Shown here: positions 28,849 through 50,899 of the stretch, in pieces
Layout: each line of letters begins with the position of its first letter
How positions within the stretch are numbered: the first letter of the stretch is position 1
Assembly (NCBI RefSeq): GCF_028502605.1
Contig: NC_079234.1
Location: 1,674,001 to 1,738,000 of the forward strand
Source of the DNA: Trichoderma breve
Lineage: Eukaryota > Ascomycota > Sordariomycetes > Hypocreales > Hypocreaceae
Direction of reading: 5' to 3'
DNA: 64,000 nucleotides
Made by a program: the position numbers and the translations under genes
Notes under the pieces: generated by a model
Database searches by the model: none
What the model saw: the letters and a program-made list of their open reading frames with translations, nothing else
Told to the model about the DNA's origin: nothing

Positions 28849-29982
28849 CTAGCCAAGAAATGCTGGTGGTGGTTCTTCCCATGCGCTCTCTACTGCCGTC
28901 GCCACCGAGGTTGTTGCTAATGCTGTGCCAACGGCGCAAGCGAGGAAAATAGGCACGGCCAAGGGAGGGCATGCAATGGCCACTGCCTCTACAGCGATTG
29001 GAGTAGCAACCATCCATGTAGCCGTAGCCGTAGTTATTGTAGCACTAGTTACTGCGAGATCTTTCCAGCTGGATTCGGGCAAATCGTCCAAGTTGCCGAC
29101 ATTGTTTAGTACTGGCCGGTCATACCCATCCCTTCGAGGAAGATTCAGCCAGACCAGGCATTCCCCTTGTGCTATCTGGCCATCGATGGTCAAGGGAAAT
29201 AGATTCCCAAGGATGACAAAGGAACGAGGGATGACCAGCGTGCAGTATGAGGGTATGAGAAGATGAAATGTGATATTCCTAGCACCGTCCCCGGCTTCTG
29301 CTTCTAGAGCAACTCGGGCACAGAGCATTAACCTGAATATTGCAAAGAGGTCGTTACTAAGACCCAACAAAAGCGGTTGTTTAGATCCAGACTCGTGACG
29401 TATTCTAGCAAAGGCACCGTGCCAATGCGTATCGGGATGGTAGATGAAGAAGCGGTGCTGTCTGAAGCGGTGCTTTCTGAGGCGGTGCTGTTTGAAGCGG
29501 TACTTTCCGAAGCGGTGCTTTCTGTCATCATCCGTACGAGTATACTCTGCCACCTTGAGGTTGAAGAAGTCAAGAACATTTCGAGCGAATCCATCTGGGC
29601 CGCCGCCTCCTCCCGCAACAAGGTTATTATGGATCCTGAGCTGGTCTGCAATACCCTTGAGCTCTCTCCTAATCTGCTCTGCCTGATACATCTTTATGAT
29701 TTCAAGAACGATTGTTGTAGCAGAGAAGAGACTCTGCATCTGATTCCCAATACCACCCCTTTCACTCAGAACCCAAGTAGATGGGGGTGCTTGTGTAGGT
29801 AGTGTTGCGGCAGGAGGTGCTGAGCTCTCAGTCGCAGAGCTTGTGAAGTAGTCGTATGCCCATCTCGCATCACCAGCTAGTTTGCGGGCTCCATCACGGA
29901 CGAGTGGGTAGATAGAAATGCCAGAGCTCGCGGTAACCAAATAGCGGCCTGCAGTGGTGGCGATCCAGCCAAGAGGCGCCAT
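28849..29982 (-). CDS. Hypothetical protein with internal 5-residue repeats
   Basis: Uninterrupted 377-codon frame. The start MAPLGWIATTAGRYLVTASSG lacks a clear signal peptide but is hydrophobic. About residues 80-130 form an amphipathic helical region (LFSATTIVLEIIKMYQAEQI) followed by a Gly run and PDGFARNVLDFFNLKVAEY. Five repeats of five residues (RKHRF, GKYRF, KQHRL, RKHRF, RQHRF) precede FIYHPDTHWHGAFARI. Then come NITFHLLIPSYCTLVIP and a C-terminal hydrophobic Ala/Val/Thr-rich segment (about 315-365) that could insert in a membrane. Its architecture resembles uncharacterised proteins often expanded in filamentous fungi; that is memory, not a search. Function unknown. It may have further exons upstream, but none could be fixed. 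Confidence 0.6.
   Translation of the reverse strand: MAPLGWIATTAGRYLVTASSGISIYPLVRDGARKLAGDARWAYDYFTSSATESSAPPAATLPTQAPPSTWVLSERGGIGNQMQSLFSATTIVLEIIKMYQAEQIRRELKGIADQLRIHNNLVAGGGGGPDGFARNVLDFFNLKVAEYTRTDDDRKHRFGKYRFKQHRLRKHRFRQHRFFIYHPDTHWHGAFARIRHESGSKQPLLLGLSNDLFAIFRLMLCARVALEAEAGDGARNITFHLLIPSYCTLVIPRSFVILGNLFPLTIDGQIAQGECLVWLNLPRRDGYDRPVLNNVGNLDDLPESSWKDLAVTSATITTATATWMVATPIAVEAVAIACPPLAVPIFLACAVGTALATTSVATAVESAWEEPPPAFLG
29449..29523. repeat. 15-bp tandem repeat, 5 copies
   Basis: The unit GAAGCGGTGCTTTCT (plus strand) is repeated five times with 1-3 substitutions per copy. As 15 is a multiple of three, expansion keeps the coding frame of the minus-strand gene, where each unit adds a basic, His/Phe-containing pentapeptide. 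The repeat is open in the antisense frame too. Confidence 0.95.
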
Positions 29983-31225: not shown

Positions 31226-34200
31226 CTACAATGTCCATACCGGCGCCTTCATCAACACCTGTCGCCCTCTTACTTCAATGGCCACAAATCCTGCAAATCG
31301 CACGCGGCCGGAATCTTTGGGGAATCCTTTTTAGTCAACAAGTTAGCAAAAAGTTCATACAAAAAGGATGAAACATAATAACTTACCGGCCTTGCTTGAA
31401 TCTCCGCTGCTGCTGCTGCTCTTATCCTTGTCTGCATCGGCATCCACCTTGGCCTCTTCCTTCTGACCATCGAGAGAAGGCAGTCCTCCCTTTTCGACTT
31501 CCATGAAGCCCGCCTGCATCACGTCTCCCGGCAGAGGATACATGATGGTCACGTCTCGGCTCTCTCGCGGCAAGTTGGCAGCAATGCCTATGGCCAGCTC
31601 CACAATCATCGAGGTGCTACCTTCGACTCCGGCCGGCGGCGGCTCAATGAGGAACTGGTACAGGTGCGCGGCCAGGTTGGTGGTCATCTTGGCAATCAGC
31701 CCTGCGCGGTTGTCTCCCGCTGTTGTCGAGTTGAGCTTGTGCTGCAGCCCGTCCAGCGTCGCCATCCGCCAGTTGACCACCTTGGTCGTCAGCGCGTCAA
31801 ACTCCTCCTGGCTGTGCATGGTGTACGCATTGCCTCGGATGTGGAGCTCAATCTCCTTGAGCTGGCTGCTAAAGGCGGCATCCAAGTCTGGGTGGAAGCA
31901 CTTGTTGAAGACCTCGTCCACTATCCACTTGGTGATGACAGCTCTACCCACCGCAGTCATCTCCTGCTTACCCGTCTTGAGGGCATCGGGGCTGACAACT
32001 TTCTCCAGCCACTGGGGCAGGCGTCGCCAGTCCTTGCGGATGTTGAACGACAGGTTGTTGATAGCGCCGTTAAGTCGGTTGAACCTGTTGACGTACTCGT
32101 TGTCGTCGAGGGCGGTCCGCGATTGCGACATGCGCTGGTTGGCGACGGCATTCTGCAGATGCTCAATCTGGCCATTAAGCTGTTCGATCTGGGACTTGCC
32201 ATCAAAGTAGAGGCGCTTCACGTTCTTATACTTTGTGACTGTAAAAACGAGCAACGTTAGCTGTACACCTTACTTGGATAACCTACATCATCCCCATGAG
32301 TCGTAAACAGAGGCGAGAGGGGAGAGAGTAAAGGAAATAGGAGACAAACGTAGTTCTTTAAATGCCTTTTCCGATTCGGCATTGTCGCGCTCGTGAGTCG
32401 AAGGCTGAGGACTATTCCGGCCTTGATCGCCAGTCGCCGCTTCATACCGCGGGGGAGCACCCGCACCGCCAGCGGCACCGGCGGCGGCAGCACCGGCGGC
32501 AGCTCCAGCAGGCTGTTGGCCGGGCTGGAGAGGTGCGCCGGGTACCGAGGTCATGTTGGAGTTGGTGTGAGTGTGGCGATATCCAGGGGGTGCGCCAGGA
32601 AGGGCCTTGTCAGCACGGTTCGTAGGTGCGCCTCCTCCGGGCGGTGCCATGGCAGGTTGCGAGAGTTGCTGCTGCTGCTGCTGGTTCGTGGGCTGGACGG
32701 GAGGCAGAGTGATGCTAGACACGGATTCTTGTGCCGGCACAGAGTAATGGACGGCAGGTGACGGTTGCTGCTCCAGCTGTTGGTTGAGCGATCGCTGGTC
32801 CGAATCGGGGGCTGGTGACTCGCGTGAGAGCTGAGAGATGGTTTCTGGGTTCTGCTGCTGGTGCAGCTGCTGTTGGCCTAGATGCGTAGTGACAATGCGA
32901 GGGTCTGTCGTCTGCTGATATTGATCTTGCGGTGAGCTGGCGGTGTAATACTGCTGGGGGGCCTGTGGCAATTGCTGCTGCTGTTGCTGAGGGTGGCCCT
33001 GCTGATCGTAGATGGCCTGCTGGGGATCGTACTGAAGCTGCTGATGCTGCTGCTGCTGTATCTGCAACTCAAACTGTTGTTGCTGCTGTTGCTGCTGCTG
33101 TTGCTGAAACTCAAACTGCTGCTGTTGCAGGGATTCCTGAGATGCAAGCACCTGTGGGTGAGCGGACTGGGGCTGCTGCAGCTGAGGCGGCGGCGGGATC
33201 TGCTGCTGCGAGTGGTGATAGTCGTCGTAGGGCGATTGTATCTCGTCGGCGTGCCCCTCACGGATGGTGTTGATGGGCGGCACGGATAGTCGGGGGTCGT
33301 GCTGGAGGCGGGCCTGGTCGTGATCGTAACCGTACTCTTCAGCCTCGCCCACTCCTTGCAGCGGCGATGTCTGGTGGACGGACGAGTTGGGCGTGTGCCA
33401 GTCGCGGTCTGGCTGGGGCGAGAGTCCCGTCTTGACGTTGGGCGGGTTGCTGTGACTGATGCGCTTGGACGGCCTGCGGGCGAGTCCAACGGTGTTGTCG
33501 TAAGACTGAGCTGCTGCGGGGGCGTCGCGGTGGTTGTCGTGGTTGTTGCGGCCGGAGAAGATACCCTTGATGATCTTGCGTGCCGATCGCTTCTCGGGGG
33601 CAGAGCCTTGCGAGGCTTGAGAGGCTGAAGCAGAGGCGGCGGCCTGGCCCTGGTGATGGCCCGTCAGTTCGTTGAGTGACGTCTGCGAGACGTTGAAGAG
33701 GTGGTGGAGCGATGCGCTGTAGCGCTGACTCTGGCGGACGGCGGAGGCGGCTTCAGCAAAATCGCCGGGGGGCTGCTGCTGCTGCTGCTGTGGTGGCGGC
33801 GGCTGTTGCTTCTGCAGCTTGCCCGTGCTCTGCTGCGGCGGTAAAGGTTGCGGCTGTTGATGCGGCTGCTGATGCTGGAGTTGAGGTTGAATTTGAGGCT
33901 GTTGATTCAGCTGATGCTGTTGCTGGAGCTGCTGGAGCTGCTGGCGGCCATCAAAAGCGGGCGCTGGCCCAATGACGGCGGGGTTCTGCACAGGCACAGG
34001 CGAGGGGCCGACGCCGGACGAGCCCGAGTGAAACAGGAGAGCCGGACCAGCACCAACTGCTCCGGACTGTTGCTGAGCTTGCAATTGCTGCTGAAGCTGA
34101 AGCTGTTGTTGTTGCTGCTGTTGCTGCTGCTGCTGCTGCGTCACGTTAAACGACTCGCTGGAGCTGAGGGCACTCGTCCGCAAGGCTGACTGAGGGGTCG

Positions 34201-34387
34201 CGTCGGGGTGCGGCGGGTGCTGCAAATCTGCCTCAGCCGGCGCCGGTGGTGCTCTTGTAGGTTGTTGAGACACAGCTCCGGACTGCTGCTGCTGTTGTAG
34301 TTGCTGCTGCTGCTGTTGTGGCGACGCCTCGGCAACCGCGTGCTGCGAACGGTTGCTGTGCTTGCCCAGGCCTCTGAAGCTGGGCAT
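31226..34387 (-). CDS. Glutamine-rich coiled-coil protein, conserved C-terminal region
   Basis: Exons 32350-34387, 31387-32238 and 31226-31326 give 996 aa. Residues 1 to about 660 are low-complexity: long Gln runs, Pro/Ser/Ala-rich linkers, and one basic patch (EKRSARKIIKGIFSGRN) near residue 265. Residues about 665-960 are folded-looking: a coiled coil (KYKNVKRLYFDGKSQIEQLN) and then a helical domain with SFNIRKDWRRLPQWLEKVV and GRAVITKWIVDEVFNKCFHP. The last exon supplies a conserved-looking end, GRVRFAGFVAIEVRGRQVLM, then KAPVWTL. Intron 1 (111 bp) has the uncommon donor GTTTGT; intron 2 (60 bp) contains GCTAAC. Reading past the intron 2 donor or using another phase gives a different, shorter tail. 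Function unknown. The Gln-rich half is prion-like and could mediate condensation. Confidence 0.85.
32940..34325. repeat. CAG/CAA (CTG/TTG on plus strand) coding repeats
   Basis: Many separate runs of Gln codons, the longest at about 34103-34138 and 33076-33125. CAG and CAA are mixed, which stabilises length. Confidence 0.85.
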
Positions 34388-41265: not shown

Positions 41266-42601
41266 ATGGCTCTCGTCAACGTTCGTCGCGATGTCAGCGA
41301 TGCCTTCTACCGCTACAAGATGGAGCGCCTCCAGACCAAGATTGAAGGCAAGGGTAACGGTATCAAGACCGTTGTCGTCAACTTGTCCAGCGTCGCCCAG
41401 TCTCTTGCCCGCCCCGGTTCTTATGTCATCAAGTACTTTGGTTTCGAGCTGGGAGCTCAGACCAACATCGACCCCAAGGACGACCGTTGGATCATCAACG
41501 GCGCCCACGATGCCGCAAAGCTGCAGGACCACCTCGATGGCTTCATCAACAAGTTTGTTCTCTGCAAAAAGTGCAAGAACCCTGAGACCGACGTTGTCAT
41601 CAAAGACGATCACATCGTGCTCGACTGCAAGGCCTGTGGTCAACGCACCGACGTTGATCTCCGCCTGAAGCTTAGTGGATTCATCCTCAAGAACCAGCCC
41701 AAGAAGGGAAAGAAGGACAAGGCCGAGCGCCGTGCCGCCAAGAAGGCAAAGCAGAACGGCCATGCCAAGGAGAACGGCCACGGCAGTGGCGAAGATGGCT
41801 CCGAGAATGGCTCCAACGATGCCGCCGAGAACGGCGACGTCAGCGATGACGAGTTCCAAAAGGTGCAGGCCGAGGCAACCACTGCCGCTACCAGCGCCGA
41901 AGTCGAGGTTAAGGACGACGAATGGGCTGTCGACATGAGCGCCGAGGCCGTCAAGGCCCGCCAGGCACAGCTCCCCGGCGAGCTCAAGCAGAAGCTCAAC
42001 ATTGGCGACGACGAGGATGAGGACGGCGAGGGCGGTGGCAACACCGTCTACGACGAGCTCGGCAACTGGATTGCCGAGCAGGCTGAAGAAAAGGGCGGCA
42101 TTGACAAGGTTGATTCCATCAACATCTATGTCAAGGCCAAGGAGCTTGGTATCGAGGCCAAGCACCGAACTGTCCTGGTTCTGGTGCAGACCGTCTTTGA
42201 CAAGAACATTGTGGCTCAGATTCCCAAGCGCGCCAGCATGCTCAAGCAGGTTAGTTTCACACAGCATTTCTGTTTTCTAATTAACCAATTTACTAATATG
42301 TCTCTTTTTCCAGTTTGTTACTTCCGAGAAGCATGAAAAGGCCCTGCTTGGTGGTACTGAGCGCCTGGTTGGCGGCCTCAGCAAGGAGAACCCTGACATA
42401 ATCCAGCAGGTCGTCAAGATCCTGCAGCTGTACTACCACCACGACCTCATCACCGAGGAGGTCGTCGTCCCCTGGGGCTCCAAGGCTAGCAAGAAGTACG
42501 TCGACGTCTCTACCTCTCGCAAGGTCCGCAAGGCTGCCGAGCCCTTTATCAAGTGGCTCCAGGAGGCTTCTGAGGAGGAATCCTCGGAAGAGGACGAGTA
42601 A
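41266..42601 (+). CDS. TIF5: Translation initiation factor eIF5
   Basis: Exons 41266-42249 and 42314-42601 give 423 aa. eIF5 is the GTPase-activating protein for eIF2 in the 43S/48S complex and controls start-codon stringency. The N-terminal domain begins [20 protein letters not shown]. The catalytic Arg region is near residues 7-15, and the zinc ribbon uses Cys100, Cys103, Cys121 and Cys124 (CKKC, CKAC). A Lys-rich linker and an acidic Gly/Asn-rich linker follow (about 145-225). The C-terminal W2/MIF4G-like HEAT domain runs from about 250 to the end and finishes with the acidic-aromatic boxes [18 protein letters not shown]. The single 64-bp intron falls inside W2. Confidence 0.96.
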
Positions 42602-43100: not shown

Positions 43101-45721
43101 TCACGCCTCTTCTTCGCCATTTGCAGACGGGGCATCGGCCATGTTCGCATCGCCGTTGGTCTCTGCATCGGCTTCTCCCTTGAAAATGAATTCTCCAATG
43201 CTAGCTGCAGTCTTTTCGACGTCGCCGTCATCTACAATGATAGTGTCGAAGAGGTCCTTGGTTTTTTCTTCATCAACGTCTGAGGAGGAAGATTTGATGA
43301 AGATATATCGTGCTGAAAAGTCCATGTCTTTGGCGAATTGCGCGGCCTAGAGGAGTTAGCGATATGTTGTAAAGCATGAAAAAAAAAAAGGGAGAAGAGG
43401 AATAAGGGGATATGTGTACATACCTCGAGATCAAGCTCAACGATGGGAACTTTGCCCGTGTCGACGACAGCATCAACGGCCTTTGTGCTCGTGCCATAGT
43501 CTACACCGTCACGAGTGCCATACTCGATGAGCCGATCGCCGTCTCGCAGCTGATTGAACTCTTGGGCCTTGACGAAGTGAAACGTCTTGCCATTGACTTC
43601 GTCCTCTGCGGGCTCACGGACAGCATGTCGCACGACAGGAGCAAAGACGCCCTTGTGCTCGCTCATGAGCTTCTCCCTCAGGGCTGATGTTGCAACGCCA
43701 GAGGATGCAGATAGGATGATCGGATCGCGATTGCTAGGCATGTCTTCCTCGCTGGCCGTCGGCTCAGCATCTTCCTCATCCTCGTCCCCTTCAACGTCGT
43801 CTTCGAAAATGATGTTAATCTTCTTGGGGTCGTCGATTTTGTCAAAAGACGCCAGCTTGAACCGCGACGCTATCCGAAGGGCTCTCCAGCTCTTGCTCGC
43901 CTTGCCCGCAACAGCCGCGGCCTTGGTCTCGTTATTCGTCGGCATGTCAATCTCAAAGTCGTCATCCGCAATTTTGCTCTTGAATCCATCAAGTTCAGGC
44001 AACTGATAGCGTTCCGCAGACTTTAATTCCTCCATTGCCGAGCCTTCGTCTTCGTTTGCCAAAAAGTCGAGCGGCACGGCATTCAACGGGTTTGGTCTCA
44101 GACGCTTATTCGTCGCCATCTTCTGCGCAGCATCCTTTGACTCGACGAAGCTCGCAGCTGACACCGGGTCGCGCTGGATGGGCGGACAACTGGCCATCTT
44201 CCAAAAGACCCAGTTCTTGTCCCTAGCCAGCACTGTTTCTACCATGCGAAAAAAGTATGGCCCATCACTTCCTTGCTTGAGATAATCTGATATTACCTTT
44301 TTCATGTCGGTAGCCCACTTTGTCTAAAGGGAGGGTAAGTATACGAGCAGGGGAGATTACATAGGATAGAGCTCTTACATTCTCCTCGTTGAGTTGGTCT
44401 GGATAAATGACCGACTTGTTGGATACATTGATGTTGGTTCGCTTCTCCCTTTCTTCTTTTGATAGGGATAAGAGAAAGTCTGTGATGATGAGAGCCTGCA
44501 CGAGAACGTGTCGTCGAAAGGAGAGGTCGCTGATCTGTATGTGGTCTGGCTGTTAGATATTGTCAAGGGGGTGTGCATGTAATACCGCGATACTTGCCTC
44601 AAGCTGGAACAAGTCCTTGCTGGTAAGATACTTGGGATTGAACGCCTCCGGGAGCGTCTCGGTTCCGTCGTCGTCTCTCTTCCGCTTCAACGTCCGCTTA
44701 AGGTTCTCCATCGACTTTGAGGAGTATATGCTGTCTTCGTGGATAGCCTGGAACGCGCTTATCGTGGATTCCAAGCTGCTCTTGAATTTCGTAAAGTGAC
44801 CAGCATCAAATAGTCTCAAGGGTTGGCTGAAGCTCTCTTGTAAAGACCAAAACAAAGGATAAAGTGTGTCAGGATCGAGGGCTTTGCTTGAATCCTGCGC
44901 GCCATTCTTTGCGCCGGTCTTGACATCGCCTTGCTCCTTTGGAGTATCATTGGTGTCGACTTCCATTTTACTGTCGTCATCTTCTGTTGTTTCAAACACT
45001 GTCACGTTCTCAACGTGGTATTCTCCTCGAAGGTTGACAGAGCTCCTGTCTCCCAGAGGGAAACTCTGAAACATAAAGATGAATACTCTTCCACAGAAAG
45101 CCGTATCCTCAGCGCGTGAGAGTCTCCGCAGCAACTCATTGCAGCTTCGGAGAATCACAAGATTCTTCTGCTTGAAGTGTTTGGCCGTGATGCGCTCTCG
45201 TCTTGACTCAAGATAGTCGAATATCTTGCGACATCCCGCAATCGTCTGGCTGTCGAGGAGCTCTTCCACAAGCCAAAACAGCAGCGCGGGGTCGCATTGG
45301 CCATCATCGGAGAGTATTGAAAGAATATCCAGCAGGTTCCACATCTTCACAAATTCTGGGCTATCAATTGAAGTTGTCGCCTTCATGGATTAGTGTTGGA
45401 CGTATGGGGCGGGCAAAAGGTTGCTTCTCGGCTTACGATTAACTTGCTGAAGAAATCGCGAGCCGCTGTTTCTACAAGGGCAAACTGCCGTGATCTGAGG
45501 GTATCTGGAGGCGCATTGTTCTCTGTGCTGCCCGCGCTCTTGGGGCGGGTGAGCGAAGAAGAAACTCGGTCGTGGATGTTGGCAAAGTCGGATTTCGCGA
45601 GAGCAGGCTCGATGGTTGTCGTTTGCTTTGCCGCTGAGGCTTCGTCCAGAAGCTCTGTGAGAAGCCGTCCGAATGCGCCCACGGCTTCGACGCCTGGGTT
45701 CTCTATATCGAGAGCTGGCAT
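43101..45721 (-). CDS. THO complex subunit THOC1/Hpr1 homologue with C-terminal guanylate-kinase-like domain
   Basis: Exons 45437-45721, 44598-45380, 44379-44534, 43424-44323 and 43101-43346 give 789 aa. THO couples transcription to mRNA export and prevents R-loops. The THOC1 core is clear: VEELLDSQTIAGCRKIFDYL, FIFMFQSFPLGDRSSVNLRG, LTSKDLFQLE joined to ISDLSFRRHVLVQ, and SWRALRIASRF. Residues about 608-745 match guanylate kinase order: PIILSASSGV where GPSGxGKS is expected, HAVREP, NGKTFHFV, LIEYGTRDGVDYGTS, VPIVELDLE, ARYIFI, FDTIIVDD. The P-loop Gly and Lys are replaced and the LID helices are missing, so it is probably not catalytic. The tail is acidic. Intron 2 is GC-AG (donor GCAAGT). 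Alternative GTATCG splicing there breaks the frame. Confidence 0.9.
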
Positions 45722-46324: not shown

Positions 46325-49300
46325 ATGCCTAACGCGAAGCGATCCAAAAGCTCTGGCGGGCGAGCTGCGGCCACACGCGAGCCGCCAAAAGATACGACAG
46401 ACGGCCGCCCGACGCCAGCAGAGGTGGAGGAGCAGGAGCATCGCTTTGTGCAGGTTGCTCGGCAGCATTGGCTGAAACCCGGCAAGAAGACGGCAAAGGT
46501 CAAGGTCAAGAACGACGTCATCAAGCAGGGCATCTGGGACGTTCTGGAGCAGGATGGCTTCTCGTATAAGCTGCTGCTGCTGTTGGAGAGTCTGCAGACG
46601 TTGGAGAGGTATGGCTGCCTTCAAAATTTATGGGATTCGGTGTGTGAAATCAGTTCTAACGCGGTGGAATAGCTATCTGTGGCCTGGGTATTCTGAGCAA
46701 GCGTCCAATTACCACGTCTTGATACTGGCGTTAATATGCAACGTCAAGAGACGAGAGCACCTCGAGACATGGAGTAAGTTTGGCAGAAGTGGTCCCCTTC
46801 TGAGCTGTGTCCGACAAGAGACTTACGGTACAATCCAGAAATCTTTGAAGAGAGGCCCGACGACTTCTCGTCCCTCTTCCGCCGCATCCTATCCATGACC
46901 CTCGACAGAACATTGTCGACGACGCTGCGAACACACCTCCTCTGCTTTCTCATCCACGCCTTCCAGAGCCTAGACTGTACCATTGTCAGGAAAGAATGCG
47001 CTCCTTTAGTGTCGATTGGCATCTGGCATAACCTGTCCACCGAGAAGCGTCAAGAAGCCCAGCTTGACTCTTCGCCCCATCTCAGAAAGGCTTGGAGGGC
47101 TGCTCAGAAGCGATATGACGCCGCAGACGAAGCTACCAAGGCACGGCTGAGATTTGAGCGTTCATGGCTTTACACCCTTATCCTTGATTTTATCAATCAG
47201 CTGTACAACGAAAGCAGCAAATCAGGTACGTCAATAGGCACCTGAAATACTCATGTCTACCTATGTTCGCCAAGCTAATCTGTTTCTATAGACCAGACGC
47301 TTCTCTACTGCGAACGATTTACCGAGTTCATATCTGACTTGCAAAGCCAATTGCCAACGCGGCGTTACGTGAATGCCCTGGTCCATGATTTACATCTCAC
47401 TCCTCTGATGAGACTGTCTCCGCTATACAACGATGCTGGCAGCGCTCTGCTGCGTGACCTCCATGCACTGCTCTCTCACTACACATTCTTCGCCATCGAT
47501 GACCAGAGTGGCATCCAACTCACCCGAACAGAGGCATTTGACCGGCATTGCTCATTGTTGGGCAAGCTTCAACGAATTGCTCTCAAGCATTTCAAGGACA
47601 AACTCACCATCTTGGCCTTGTCAAACTACGGGTCCATTGACAAGCGAGAAGAATTGATATCACATCTTGATCCCCTCACCGATGATGAGCTGCTCGACTT
47701 GGTGAATCTTTTGGATCTTAGGTCTGCATATCCCGAAAGCCTCAACTTGACCATTGACCGCAAATTTCTCATTGAATTCCTCCTTACTACCTTTGAACGG
47801 AAGAAGACCTTCCAGGAGACTGCCCGGAGAATAAGTATAGTCCCGACTGAAGATACGTTGTTTGACGACAACTTTCAACGGGCGGATTCTTACGATGGTT
47901 CACATCCCCTGGCCCTGCCGAAGCTCAATCTTCAATATCTGTCAGTTGGTGATTTTGTTTGGAGGGCACTAGTGTTATATCGCTGTGAATCCTTTTACGG
48001 AATCCGCAAGGACATCGAGGCCGCGCTGCGTCGTCTTCGCCCGGAAGTCAGGCGGCCCGGCGAAACTCATTTTGCGGGCTTCTCGAAAATGGCCATGCCC
48101 ATTGCCAAACCAACAATACTGGAAGTCGTCCCCGCTCTCGTTGGAGATGATAAGCCATCCCTTGTTCGAGCCGAAGTGTCTTTCGATGCTCGACGCCTAG
48201 GAGACGGTGTGCGCAGGGAATGGGACACTCTTCGGCCTGGCGATGTCGTCTTCTTATTAGCGATACACCCTTCCCCTTCAGCCGGCCAAGCTGCCGCAAA
48301 TGGTAGCAAACCGGCCCAGTCAGAGGCTGAAAAGGCTGGTGTCTTGACGGTGAGAGCTGCTGAAGTGGTTCACATCACCGATGACAGAGGTCGCCATGCC
48401 AGGGAAGGCGGTGAGCGCCTCGACCAGAGACGACGTATCCAGTTGAAGCTGGATTCAGCAACGTACGCACACGATGCTGAGCAAGCGGCAGCCGGCAAGC
48501 CTGACGTATATGCAGGCATTAACCTGCTTCTCCGACGCAATAAAAGAGAAAACAATTTCAAGCCGGTTCTGGAAGCCATTCGTACTCTTGTCCTGTCAGA
48601 AATGCCACTGCCTACATGGCTTCATGAAGTATTTTTAGGTTATGGCGACCCAGCCGGCGCACATTACAAAAATCTGCCCAACAGGCTCAAGACGATTGAT
48701 TACAGGGATACCTTTTTAGGCTGGCAGCATCTAGTCGAAAGCTTACCTGGCAAGACGGTCGAACCTGACGATAATGTTACCGGAAGCTTTGGGCCTCCGT
48801 ACGTTCTTGAAGCCGTCGATAAAACAGAGGAACCCCAGAGCGGGAAGCCATCCAAGAAACGACGGCGCGATGCTGAACCAGCACTGCTCTCGGAAGTGGA
48901 AACCCTCAAAGTTTCAACTTACTTGCCTCCCAATAATGGACCTTACCCCATTGACGCACCCAAGCAGAACACAGTACGGTTTACTCCGGCTCAAATCGAG
49001 GCCATCATGTCTGGATCGCAGCCCGGGTTGACTGTGGTTGTTGGACCTCCGGGTACAGGCAAGACAGACGTTGCCACACAAATCATAAACAACATCTATC
49101 ACAACTTTCCAAACCAAAAGACACTACTCATTGCCCACAGCAACCAAGCTCTCAACCAGCTCTTTGCCAAAATCATTGCATTGGATATCGATGAGAGACA
49201 TTTGTTGCGTCTTGGTCATGGTGAGGAAGATCTGGACACTGAAGGCAGCTTCAGCAAATACGGACGTGTTGAATCGTTTTTGGACAACCGAGACAGGTTT

Positions 49301-50899
49301 TTGTATGAAGTAAAGAAGCTCGCAGCAAGCTTGGGGGCTCCAGGAGCGCACGAGAACTCGGCCGAAACCGCAGGCTACTTCAACGCCGCCTACGTTGAGC
49401 CTGCTTGGGCCAAATTTCTTCTGGTAGCGGAGTCTGGTGCATCCACTGCCTCTGACATTGTGCAAAACTTTCCCTTTCACTCCTACTTTTCGGACGCTCC
49501 CCAGCCCCTGTTCCCGCCGGAGGCAGACCGAGCACAAGTATTGGGCATTGCTCAGGGCTGTTACCGCCACATTAGCAAAATCTTTTCCGAGTTGGCAGAT
49601 ATTAGGCCTTTTGAGATCCTTCGTCGTGAGAAGGATAAGGCCAATTATCTCCTCACCAACGAAGCCCGGATTATTGCAATGACCACGACTCATGCAGCAA
49701 TCAGGAGGGGTGAGATTGCGGCCCTTGGATTCCACTACGACAACGTCATCATGGAGGAAGCGGCTCAAATCACCGAGATTGAAACGTTTATTCCTCTTGC
49801 CATGCAGAAACCCGTTGACGGCGAGTTGCCACTGCAGCGAATCGTGCTATGTGGTGACCACTTCCAAAACTCACCGGTTATCCAGAGTCTGGCTTTCCGT
49901 CATTATGCCAACCTGGAGCAGTCGCTGTTCTCACGACTAGTTCGACTGGGCGTGCCAACTGTTACCTTGGACCAGCAAGGTCGTGCTCGGCCCTCTATTG
50001 CCAAGCTGTACGAGTGGCGTTATCCTAAGCTCGACAACCTCCCCGATGTTCAGACTAACCCAGAGTTCTTGCGGGCAAATGCTGGCTTCAAGTATGACTT
50101 TCAGTTCATCAATGTTCCCAATTATAAGGGGCGTGGCGAAGCTGAACCGACACCGCACTTTATTCAAAACCTCGGCGAAGCTGAGTATGCGGTGGCCATC
50201 TATCAGTATATGCGACTTCTCGGATATCCTGCGGACAAAATCACCATACTCACAACATACGCTGGTCAACGGGCTCTGGTAAAGGATGTACTTGCCCACC
50301 GATGCGCAAACCCTATTTTTGGTCTCCCCAAGGCTGTTGCTACAGTCGACAAATACCAGGGAGAGCAAAATGATTGTAAGTTTATACTTGTCATTGAACA
50401 TTCGAATAACTAGACACTAATGGCTGCTTTCTTAGACATTATTCTTTCTCTGACTCGCACGTCGCGAGTAGGCTATCTTCGCGATGTCCGTCGTATGACT
50501 GTGGCCTTTTCTCGAGCGAGACTAGGACTCTACGTCCTCGGACGCCGAGAAGTGTTTGAAGCCTGTCCCGAGCTCCGACCAGCGTTTGATGTGCTTTTAC
50601 AGCGTCCAGACAAACTCATGTTGGTGACGGGAGAGCTGTTTCCAACTGAGCGGCAAAGCACGGACGAAGATGGTCCTGTGGAAGGAGAAGTGGTCATGGA
50701 GGGCGTCGAGCACATTGGGCAGTATGTGTTTGAGATGACGAATACAAGGATACAACAGCTGCAGGCAGAGCAGGGCGTGCTGATGGACTCTACGATTGAT
50801 GAGGCGGAGGAAGATGGGCAAGAGGGGTATTACGATGAGGAAGATGAAAAGACGCTGGACCCGGATATTCTTGAGGTTCGAGAGGGAGAGGCGAACTAG
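46325..50899 (+). CDS. Aquarius/Cwf11-type spliceosomal RNA helicase (intron-binding)
   Basis: Exons 46325-46608, 46673-46773, 46839-47225, 47292-50375 and 50436-50899 give 1439 aa. Aquarius (IBP160) binds the intron upstream of the branch point in the spliceosome and is an SF1, Upf1-like helicase. The N-terminal about 560 residues are the helical armadillo-like domain (LLYCERFTEFISDLQSQLPT). A beta-barrel and pointer region follow. Helicase motifs: Walker A GPPGTGKT (842-849), motif II EEAAQ (1079-1083, so EE replaces DE as in this family), motif III LCGDHFQNSPV, and VDKYQGEQNDYIILSLTRT with MTVAFSRARLGLYVLGRR. The end is acidic. Reading through intron 4 (50376-50435) would stop before motif VI, so splicing is required. 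Introns are 60-66 bp. Confidence 0.95.

Follow-up and report, generated by a model that had tools for sequence, protein, structure and literature searches.

A predicted pseudo-guanylate kinase fused to THOC1 in Trichoderma breve: loss of the ATP site and retention of the GMP-binding lobe

Introduction

A protein that joins an N-terminal efThoc1 domain to a C-terminal guanylate kinase (GK) domain was described in Magnaporthe oryzae as Guk2 (MoGuk2, MGG_06394; Cai et al. 2017, PMC5732230). Guk2 has about 800 amino acids and sits beside a separate enzyme, Guk1. Cai et al. named mRNA export as a role of efThoc1 and attributed the mutant phenotype to synthesis of guanosine triphosphate (GTP) (PMC5732230). 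This was the only functional paper on the fusion that we found, and no search was made for a decayed GK in Guk2 under other names; the main text of PMC3032688 mentions neither THOC1 nor guanylate. Here we describe a gene of the same build in a 64,000-nucleotide stretch of the Trichoderma breve genome (the window). The fusion itself is thus already known; what is new is the repeated decay of its GK domain, together with a preserved lobe for guanosine monophosphate (GMP) and a replaced hinge Ser.

The best described GK-derived domains without catalysis are those of the MAGUK proteins. When Pro replaces Ser at the GK hinge, the enzyme becomes a protein-binding domain (PMC3335814, PMC4718807), in which phosphate is contacted by one Arg and two Tyr side chains (PMC3335814). 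Anderson et al. (2016) found GK interaction domains in animals, choanoflagellates, and Filasterea, but in none of the sequenced fungi (PMC4718807).

Results and Discussion

The Trichoderma protein is a pseudo-guanylate kinase on THOC1, an identification that we regard as real and well supported. Pfam searches assigned residues 108–600 to efThoc1 (PF11957, E=3e-148, profile 1–482 of 490) and residues 607–739 to Guanylate_kin (PF00625, E=3.7e-25, profile 2–138 of 182). No other Pfam domain was found at E up to 1, and the protein, unlike MAGUKs, has no SH3 or PDZ domain. Searched alone against the sequences of the PDB, the GK piece matched mouse GMPK at 1.4e-19, slightly behind its best match, FAP42 (7n6g, 7.4e-22). 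FAP42, a ciliary protein with an axonemal role, also carries diverged GK-like stretches (several of them) within a large protein, but it has 2540 residues and no THOC1. A structure model of P0001, the Trichoderma harzianum ortholog that was nearest among the matches listed (98% identical), shows a confident GK fold. Human THOC1 in TREX structures (7znk) matched residues 120–566 of P0001, so the THOC1 core is common to both, but there was no GK match to human THOC1; animal THOC1 ends in a death domain instead. A profile search of the genome contigs (38.5 Mb, a Trichoderma of the harzianum clade) placed all PF11957 matches in the exons of this one gene, making it the sole THOC1/Hpr1 gene found.

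The gene lies on the minus strand, from an ATG at 45721 to a stop codon ending at 43101, and encodes 789 residues in five exons. Since exon 4 runs without interruption from the last part of THOC1 through the first ~100 GK residues, the fusion does not depend on any splice guess, and this rules out a merger of two adjacent genes by the gene model. Such an artefact is further opposed by the presence of both domains in every listed homolog row, by the single THOC1 gene, and by the many homologs that continue past a common splice site, like frames read straight from DNA. A first-pass annotation of the window had proposed a THOC1 homologue fused to a GK-like domain. The profile matches, the shared exon, and the fold agree with it, its span (43101..45721) proved exact, and the eight GK motifs it quoted are all present.

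Judged from its sequence, the domain has lost the parts that bind adenosine triphosphate (ATP), has retained the GMP-binding half, and is most likely no longer an enzyme. The GxxxxGK[ST] P-loop of GK enzymes is replaced by SASSGVATS, and the LID by a 15-residue link without Arg, compared with 36–44 residues (mostly 41–42) in the rows having a LID. Both losses had been anticipated in the first-pass annotation, and several tests support a lost ATP site within a GK fold. Relative to mouse GMPK, the protein retains R41 (Arg644), E72 (Glu675), Y81 (Tyr684), T83, S84, and D103, whereas R44 is changed to Ala647, Y53 to Phe656, and the hinge Ser (S37) to Arg640. We take these residues to have their assigned roles in mouse GMPK. 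With the enzyme equivalog TIGR03263 the protein scored 69.6 bits, short of the cut-off of 160.45, which was designed for bacterial and archaeal annotation, so that a lower score is no proof of inactivity. Unlike Guk2, which is reported as active with a P-loop described as present (PMC5732230), the Trichoderma protein has neither the Gly-Lys nor the LID, and its predicted sequence argues against the GK activity reported for Guk2.

The comparison with MAGUK GK domains that the first-pass annotation had drawn held in part. As in Dlg, PSD-95, and MPP, the domain is GK-derived, has a diverged ATP side and no LID, keeps its GMP lobe within a larger scaffold, and has its hinge Ser replaced. The likeness fails at the hinge residue itself, which is Arg rather than Pro, and at one of the three phosphate contacts (Arg644 and Tyr684 are kept, but the third is Phe656, not Tyr).

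Loss of the P-loop and LID occurred repeatedly across relatives. Homologs were taken as the best 120 matches each of 1216, 597, and 1534, giving 239 proteins and later 316. The GK domain was present in 239 of 239 and then 316 of 316 proteins among the matches listed, but every query contained the domain, and with this sampling THOC1 proteins without it could be missed. The first-pass annotation had raised the question of whether other Pezizomycotina THOC1 proteins carry the domain; the 316 listed proteins, from many genera, do, which rules out an oddity of Trichoderma. Among 75 full-length orthologs, the P-loop Gly-Lys was present in 46 and absent from 29, where presence meant GK with S, T, G, A, or D as the next residue and where Stachybotrys chartarum (P0063), positive merely through nearby GKS letters, should count as lost. 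A LID was found in 55 and missing from 20. We counted at least 10 changes of P-loop state (the same if only starred branches are counted) and at least 10 of LID state on a tree of the THOC1 core alone, a quick tree (LG+G4, one kind of support) that misplaces Hypoxylon beside Leotiomycetes. Because the domain derives from a kinase, these changes are most simply losses; where a loss is seen only once, faulty annotation or sequencing could be the cause.

Enzyme-like scores were confined to one of the two classes compared, with classes and orders assigned from genus names without taxonomy look-ups and with incomplete labels for P0010 and P0015. The TIGR03263 cut-off was passed by 12 of the 18 Leotiomycete orthologs, all those in the 75-protein set (5/5, 7/10, and 0/3 by batch); the yeast enzyme and a standalone Trichoderma GK (at C3, below) were left out. 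It was passed by 0 of 22 Sordariomycete proteins, namely the window protein and 21 hand-picked from the 57 in the set, Magnaporthe not among them. The three Sordariomycete batches reached at best 147.3 bits (five proteins), 81.6–121.4 bits (ten), and 55.8–95.8 bits (six). This spectrum, from intact-looking enzymes to dead ones, suggests that the present task of the domain is binding and not the production of guanosine diphosphate (GDP). We also observed that three Ophiocordyceps proteins (P0108, P0109, and P0110; 1170–1187 amino acids) continue from THOC1-GK into a cytochrome P450 domain (PF00067), possibly through a merged gene model.

The GMP lobe (mouse 35–84, 50 columns) keeps its conservation level while the rest of the domain falls. 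Where Gly-Lys is absent (29 proteins), the columns of the lobe have a mean conservation of 0.68, compared with 0.45 for the other 116 columns, 0.32 for the P-loop, and 0.28 for the LID; the corresponding values in the 46 proteins with Gly-Lys were 0.70, 0.58, 0.76, and 0.48. The lobe held 15 of the 20 best conserved columns in the former group and 13 in the latter. Several residues of mouse GMPK persist in the 29 proteins, including E72 (29), T83 and S84 (28 each), and D103 (22). Within the lobe, an RDGD motif occurs in 66 of the 75 orthologs and 292 of the 316 proteins (among the matches listed); it is not in mouse GMPK, and we saw none in the enzymes of yeast and human or in the two standalone ones of Trichoderma.

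The hinge residue differs among the groups. Ser is found in 15 of 18 Leotiomycetes, and Arg in all 39 Hypocreales and all 6 Glomerellales rows; ten proteins of the Sordariales group have Ala (5), Pro (2), Thr (1), Val (1), or Ser (1). Among the 316 listed proteins, 225 have Arg and 35 have Ser. This replacement matters because it is here that Ser-to-Pro converts the enzyme into a protein-binding domain. We checked the position in structures: it is Pro in 4f4j and Ser in 1ex6, and 9jae is titled as a GMPK S37P mutant.

The genome holds two further GK genes, one at C1:7251254 (an open frame of 269 residues) and one with two exons at C3:4852998/4852655, so phosphorylation of GMP should not require the THOC1-fused domain. 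The standalone GK other than the one at C3 (L001 1354–2118, 254 residues) scores 210.6 bits with TIGR03263, above the cut-off, and lacks the intron of the C3 gene, its frame running unbroken through that position. The fused GK and the standalone GK at C3 share a phase-0 intron at the same codon boundary (LDLE/AAQF and IEME/GVKQ, respectively). In an unrooted tree of 23 GK proteins, a branch with 100/98 support separates five standalone enzymes from 18 fused domains, the pattern expected of one fusion event. Of homologs P0121–P0239 (119 rows), 108 contain a GTS-like motif, and 72 of the 108 chains end within 60 residues of it. The residue following the splice point in 40 of those homologs is Val in 38, Ala in 1, and otherwise in P0136, and the Val is explained by reading into the GT donor. 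Homologs ending at a common intron, taken with the GK tree, fit a single event in which a fungal GK gene was joined to the end of THOC1, before Sordariomycetes and Leotiomycetes split.

With moderate confidence, we propose that the only THOC1 found in this Trichoderma genome ends in a non-enzymatic GK that is most likely a docking module for a partner of THO, held through the old GMP pocket. An ancestral GK gene would have been joined to THOC1 before the two classes split, and the GMP lobe would have given, or come to give, the fused domain a role in binding. Catalysis may then have become dispensable, after which the ATP site and LID would have been lost repeatedly. The THO complex would bind its partner through the old pocket and the RDGD helix, the candidates being a guanine nucleotide or a protein that may be phosphorylated. 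Yeast THO binds the doubly phosphorylated tail of RNA polymerase II (PMC3828145), which makes a phosphorylated partner a reasonable first candidate and no more. A bolder version, which we put forward tentatively and hold to be rather doubtful, is that fungi made a non-catalytic GK binding domain in THO/TREX repeatedly and independently of the MAGUKs, starting from a THOC1-GK that was still enzyme-like and persists as such in Leotiomycetes, and that the lobe reads a phosphorylated transcription or export partner such as the RNA polymerase II tail.

Several observations weigh against a docking role. The lobe is the better conserved part in the 46 Gly-Lys proteins too, so high conservation there is no special mark of the dead domains, and folding by itself may account for part of it. 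The R44 position is Ala, and the phosphate site is two-thirds complete, with Phe at the Tyr53 position. Of the 29 proteins that lack Gly-Lys, 19 retain Y81, and all ten Sordariales-group rows have His, Arg, or Gln at this position. Between the window protein and seven Trichoderma proteins, the whole GK domain is 73–89% identical, the THOC1 core 89–99%, and the lobe (86–94%) no better than the linker before the GK domain (84–97%). The last two points, along with the many state changes of P-loop and LID, would be expected if the domain were a decaying relic, enzymatically useful in the ancestor and now a little-constrained, harmless tail. We consider this unlikely, since the lobe and RDGD stay conserved where P-loop and LID do not, the frame is open, the fold is confident, and the domain was kept in every listed protein, though every query contained it.

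A guanine-nucleotide sensor, in which the lobe would bind GMP or GDP without catalysis and inform THO of nucleotide supply, seems less probable still. The persistence of E72, T83, S84, and D103 after loss of Gly-Lys and the altered nucleotide pools of the Magnaporthe mutant (PMC5732230) would agree with it, but R44 and Tyr53 are replaced in the Trichoderma protein, and MAGUK domains with all phosphate contacts kept bind neither ATP nor GMP (PMC3335814). We give little weight to a structural cap that stabilizes THOC1 or packs in the THO complex without a ligand. It would account for a fold retained as the active site erodes and for the position of RDGD, which is part of the GMP lobe and not near the ATP site, but R41, E72, T83, and S84 persist after ATP-site loss, probably more than a cap needs. 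Guk2 raises GDP in yeast, and its deletion mutant, which is viable, has more GMP and less GDP and GTP (PMC5732230), data suggesting that at least one Sordariomycete has an enzymatically active form, which likewise counts against a docking role. Activity was inferred there from cellular nucleotide levels, and the parts of the paper considered contain no assay of purified protein; we noticed no Magnaporthe protein among the named homolog rows listed. Deleting the Guk2 P-loop had a milder effect than deleting the GK or efThoc1 domain (PMC5732230), which would agree with a non-catalytic share of its function. Even with the enzyme-like scores of most Leotiomycetes, a still active kinase is highly improbable in the Trichoderma protein, which has no P-loop Lys, no LID, and no hinge Ser, belongs to a class with no TIGR03263 passes among those scored, and shares its genome with two standalone GKs.

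If the bolder version, with a lobe that reads a phosphorylated partner, is correct, the family would form a natural series from enzyme to reader within one gene. The functional literature found treats the fusion as an enzyme of GTP synthesis, but the pattern suggests that in many fungi it is hardly one, so Guk2-type phenotypes may belong to the THO complex. Besides the MAGUKs, the family would show a second time, and in fungi, how an enzyme turns into a domain without catalysis, and its living orthologs include both enzyme-like and decayed forms. A GK-derived domain of this kind in fungi contrasts with the 2016 statement that fungi have no GK interaction domains (PMC4718807).

Gene structure and neighbouring genes

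All five exons are divisible by three, so every intron is in phase 0 (Table 1). One intron has a GC-AG boundary, and the others are GT-AG.

Table 1. Features of the THOC1-GK gene and other genes in the window
Feature	Position	Strand	Remarks
Exon 1	45437..45721	-	residues 1-95; GT donor
Exon 2	44598..45380	-	residues 96-356; efThoc1; GC donor
GC donor of intron 2	44592-44597	-	AG/GCAAGT
Exon 3	44379..44534	-	residues 357-408; efThoc1
Exon 4	43424..44323	-	residues 409-708; efThoc1 end, acidic linker, and first ~100 GK residues; single open frame
P-loop position SASSGVATS	43685..43711	-	residues 613-621; without Gly-Lys
GMP-binding lobe	43496..43645	-	residues 635-684
Family RDGD motif	43535..43546	-	residues 668-671; not in mouse GMPK
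Intron inside GK domain	43347..43423	-	phase 0; same position as intron of standalone GK at C3
Exon 5	43101..43346	-	residues 709-789 with stop codon; final strands and helix of GK domain; acidic tail
Link at expected LID position	43251..43295	-	residues 726-740; 15 residues
Open frame	28849-29982	-	377 residues; DUF6579 match, 3.7e-12
Open frame	32288-34387	-	699 residues; no Pfam match at 0.001
eIF5 gene	41266-42601	+	PF01873
Aquarius gene	46325-50413	+	intron-binding spliceosomal helicase; PF16399, PF21143, PF21144

The eIF5 and THOC1 genes converge, with about 500 base pairs between their ends. On the other side, Aquarius is transcribed divergently, and its start codon (read by eye) lies about 600 base pairs from that of THOC1-GK. 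Given this distance, a promoter region common to both RNA-processing genes is possible.
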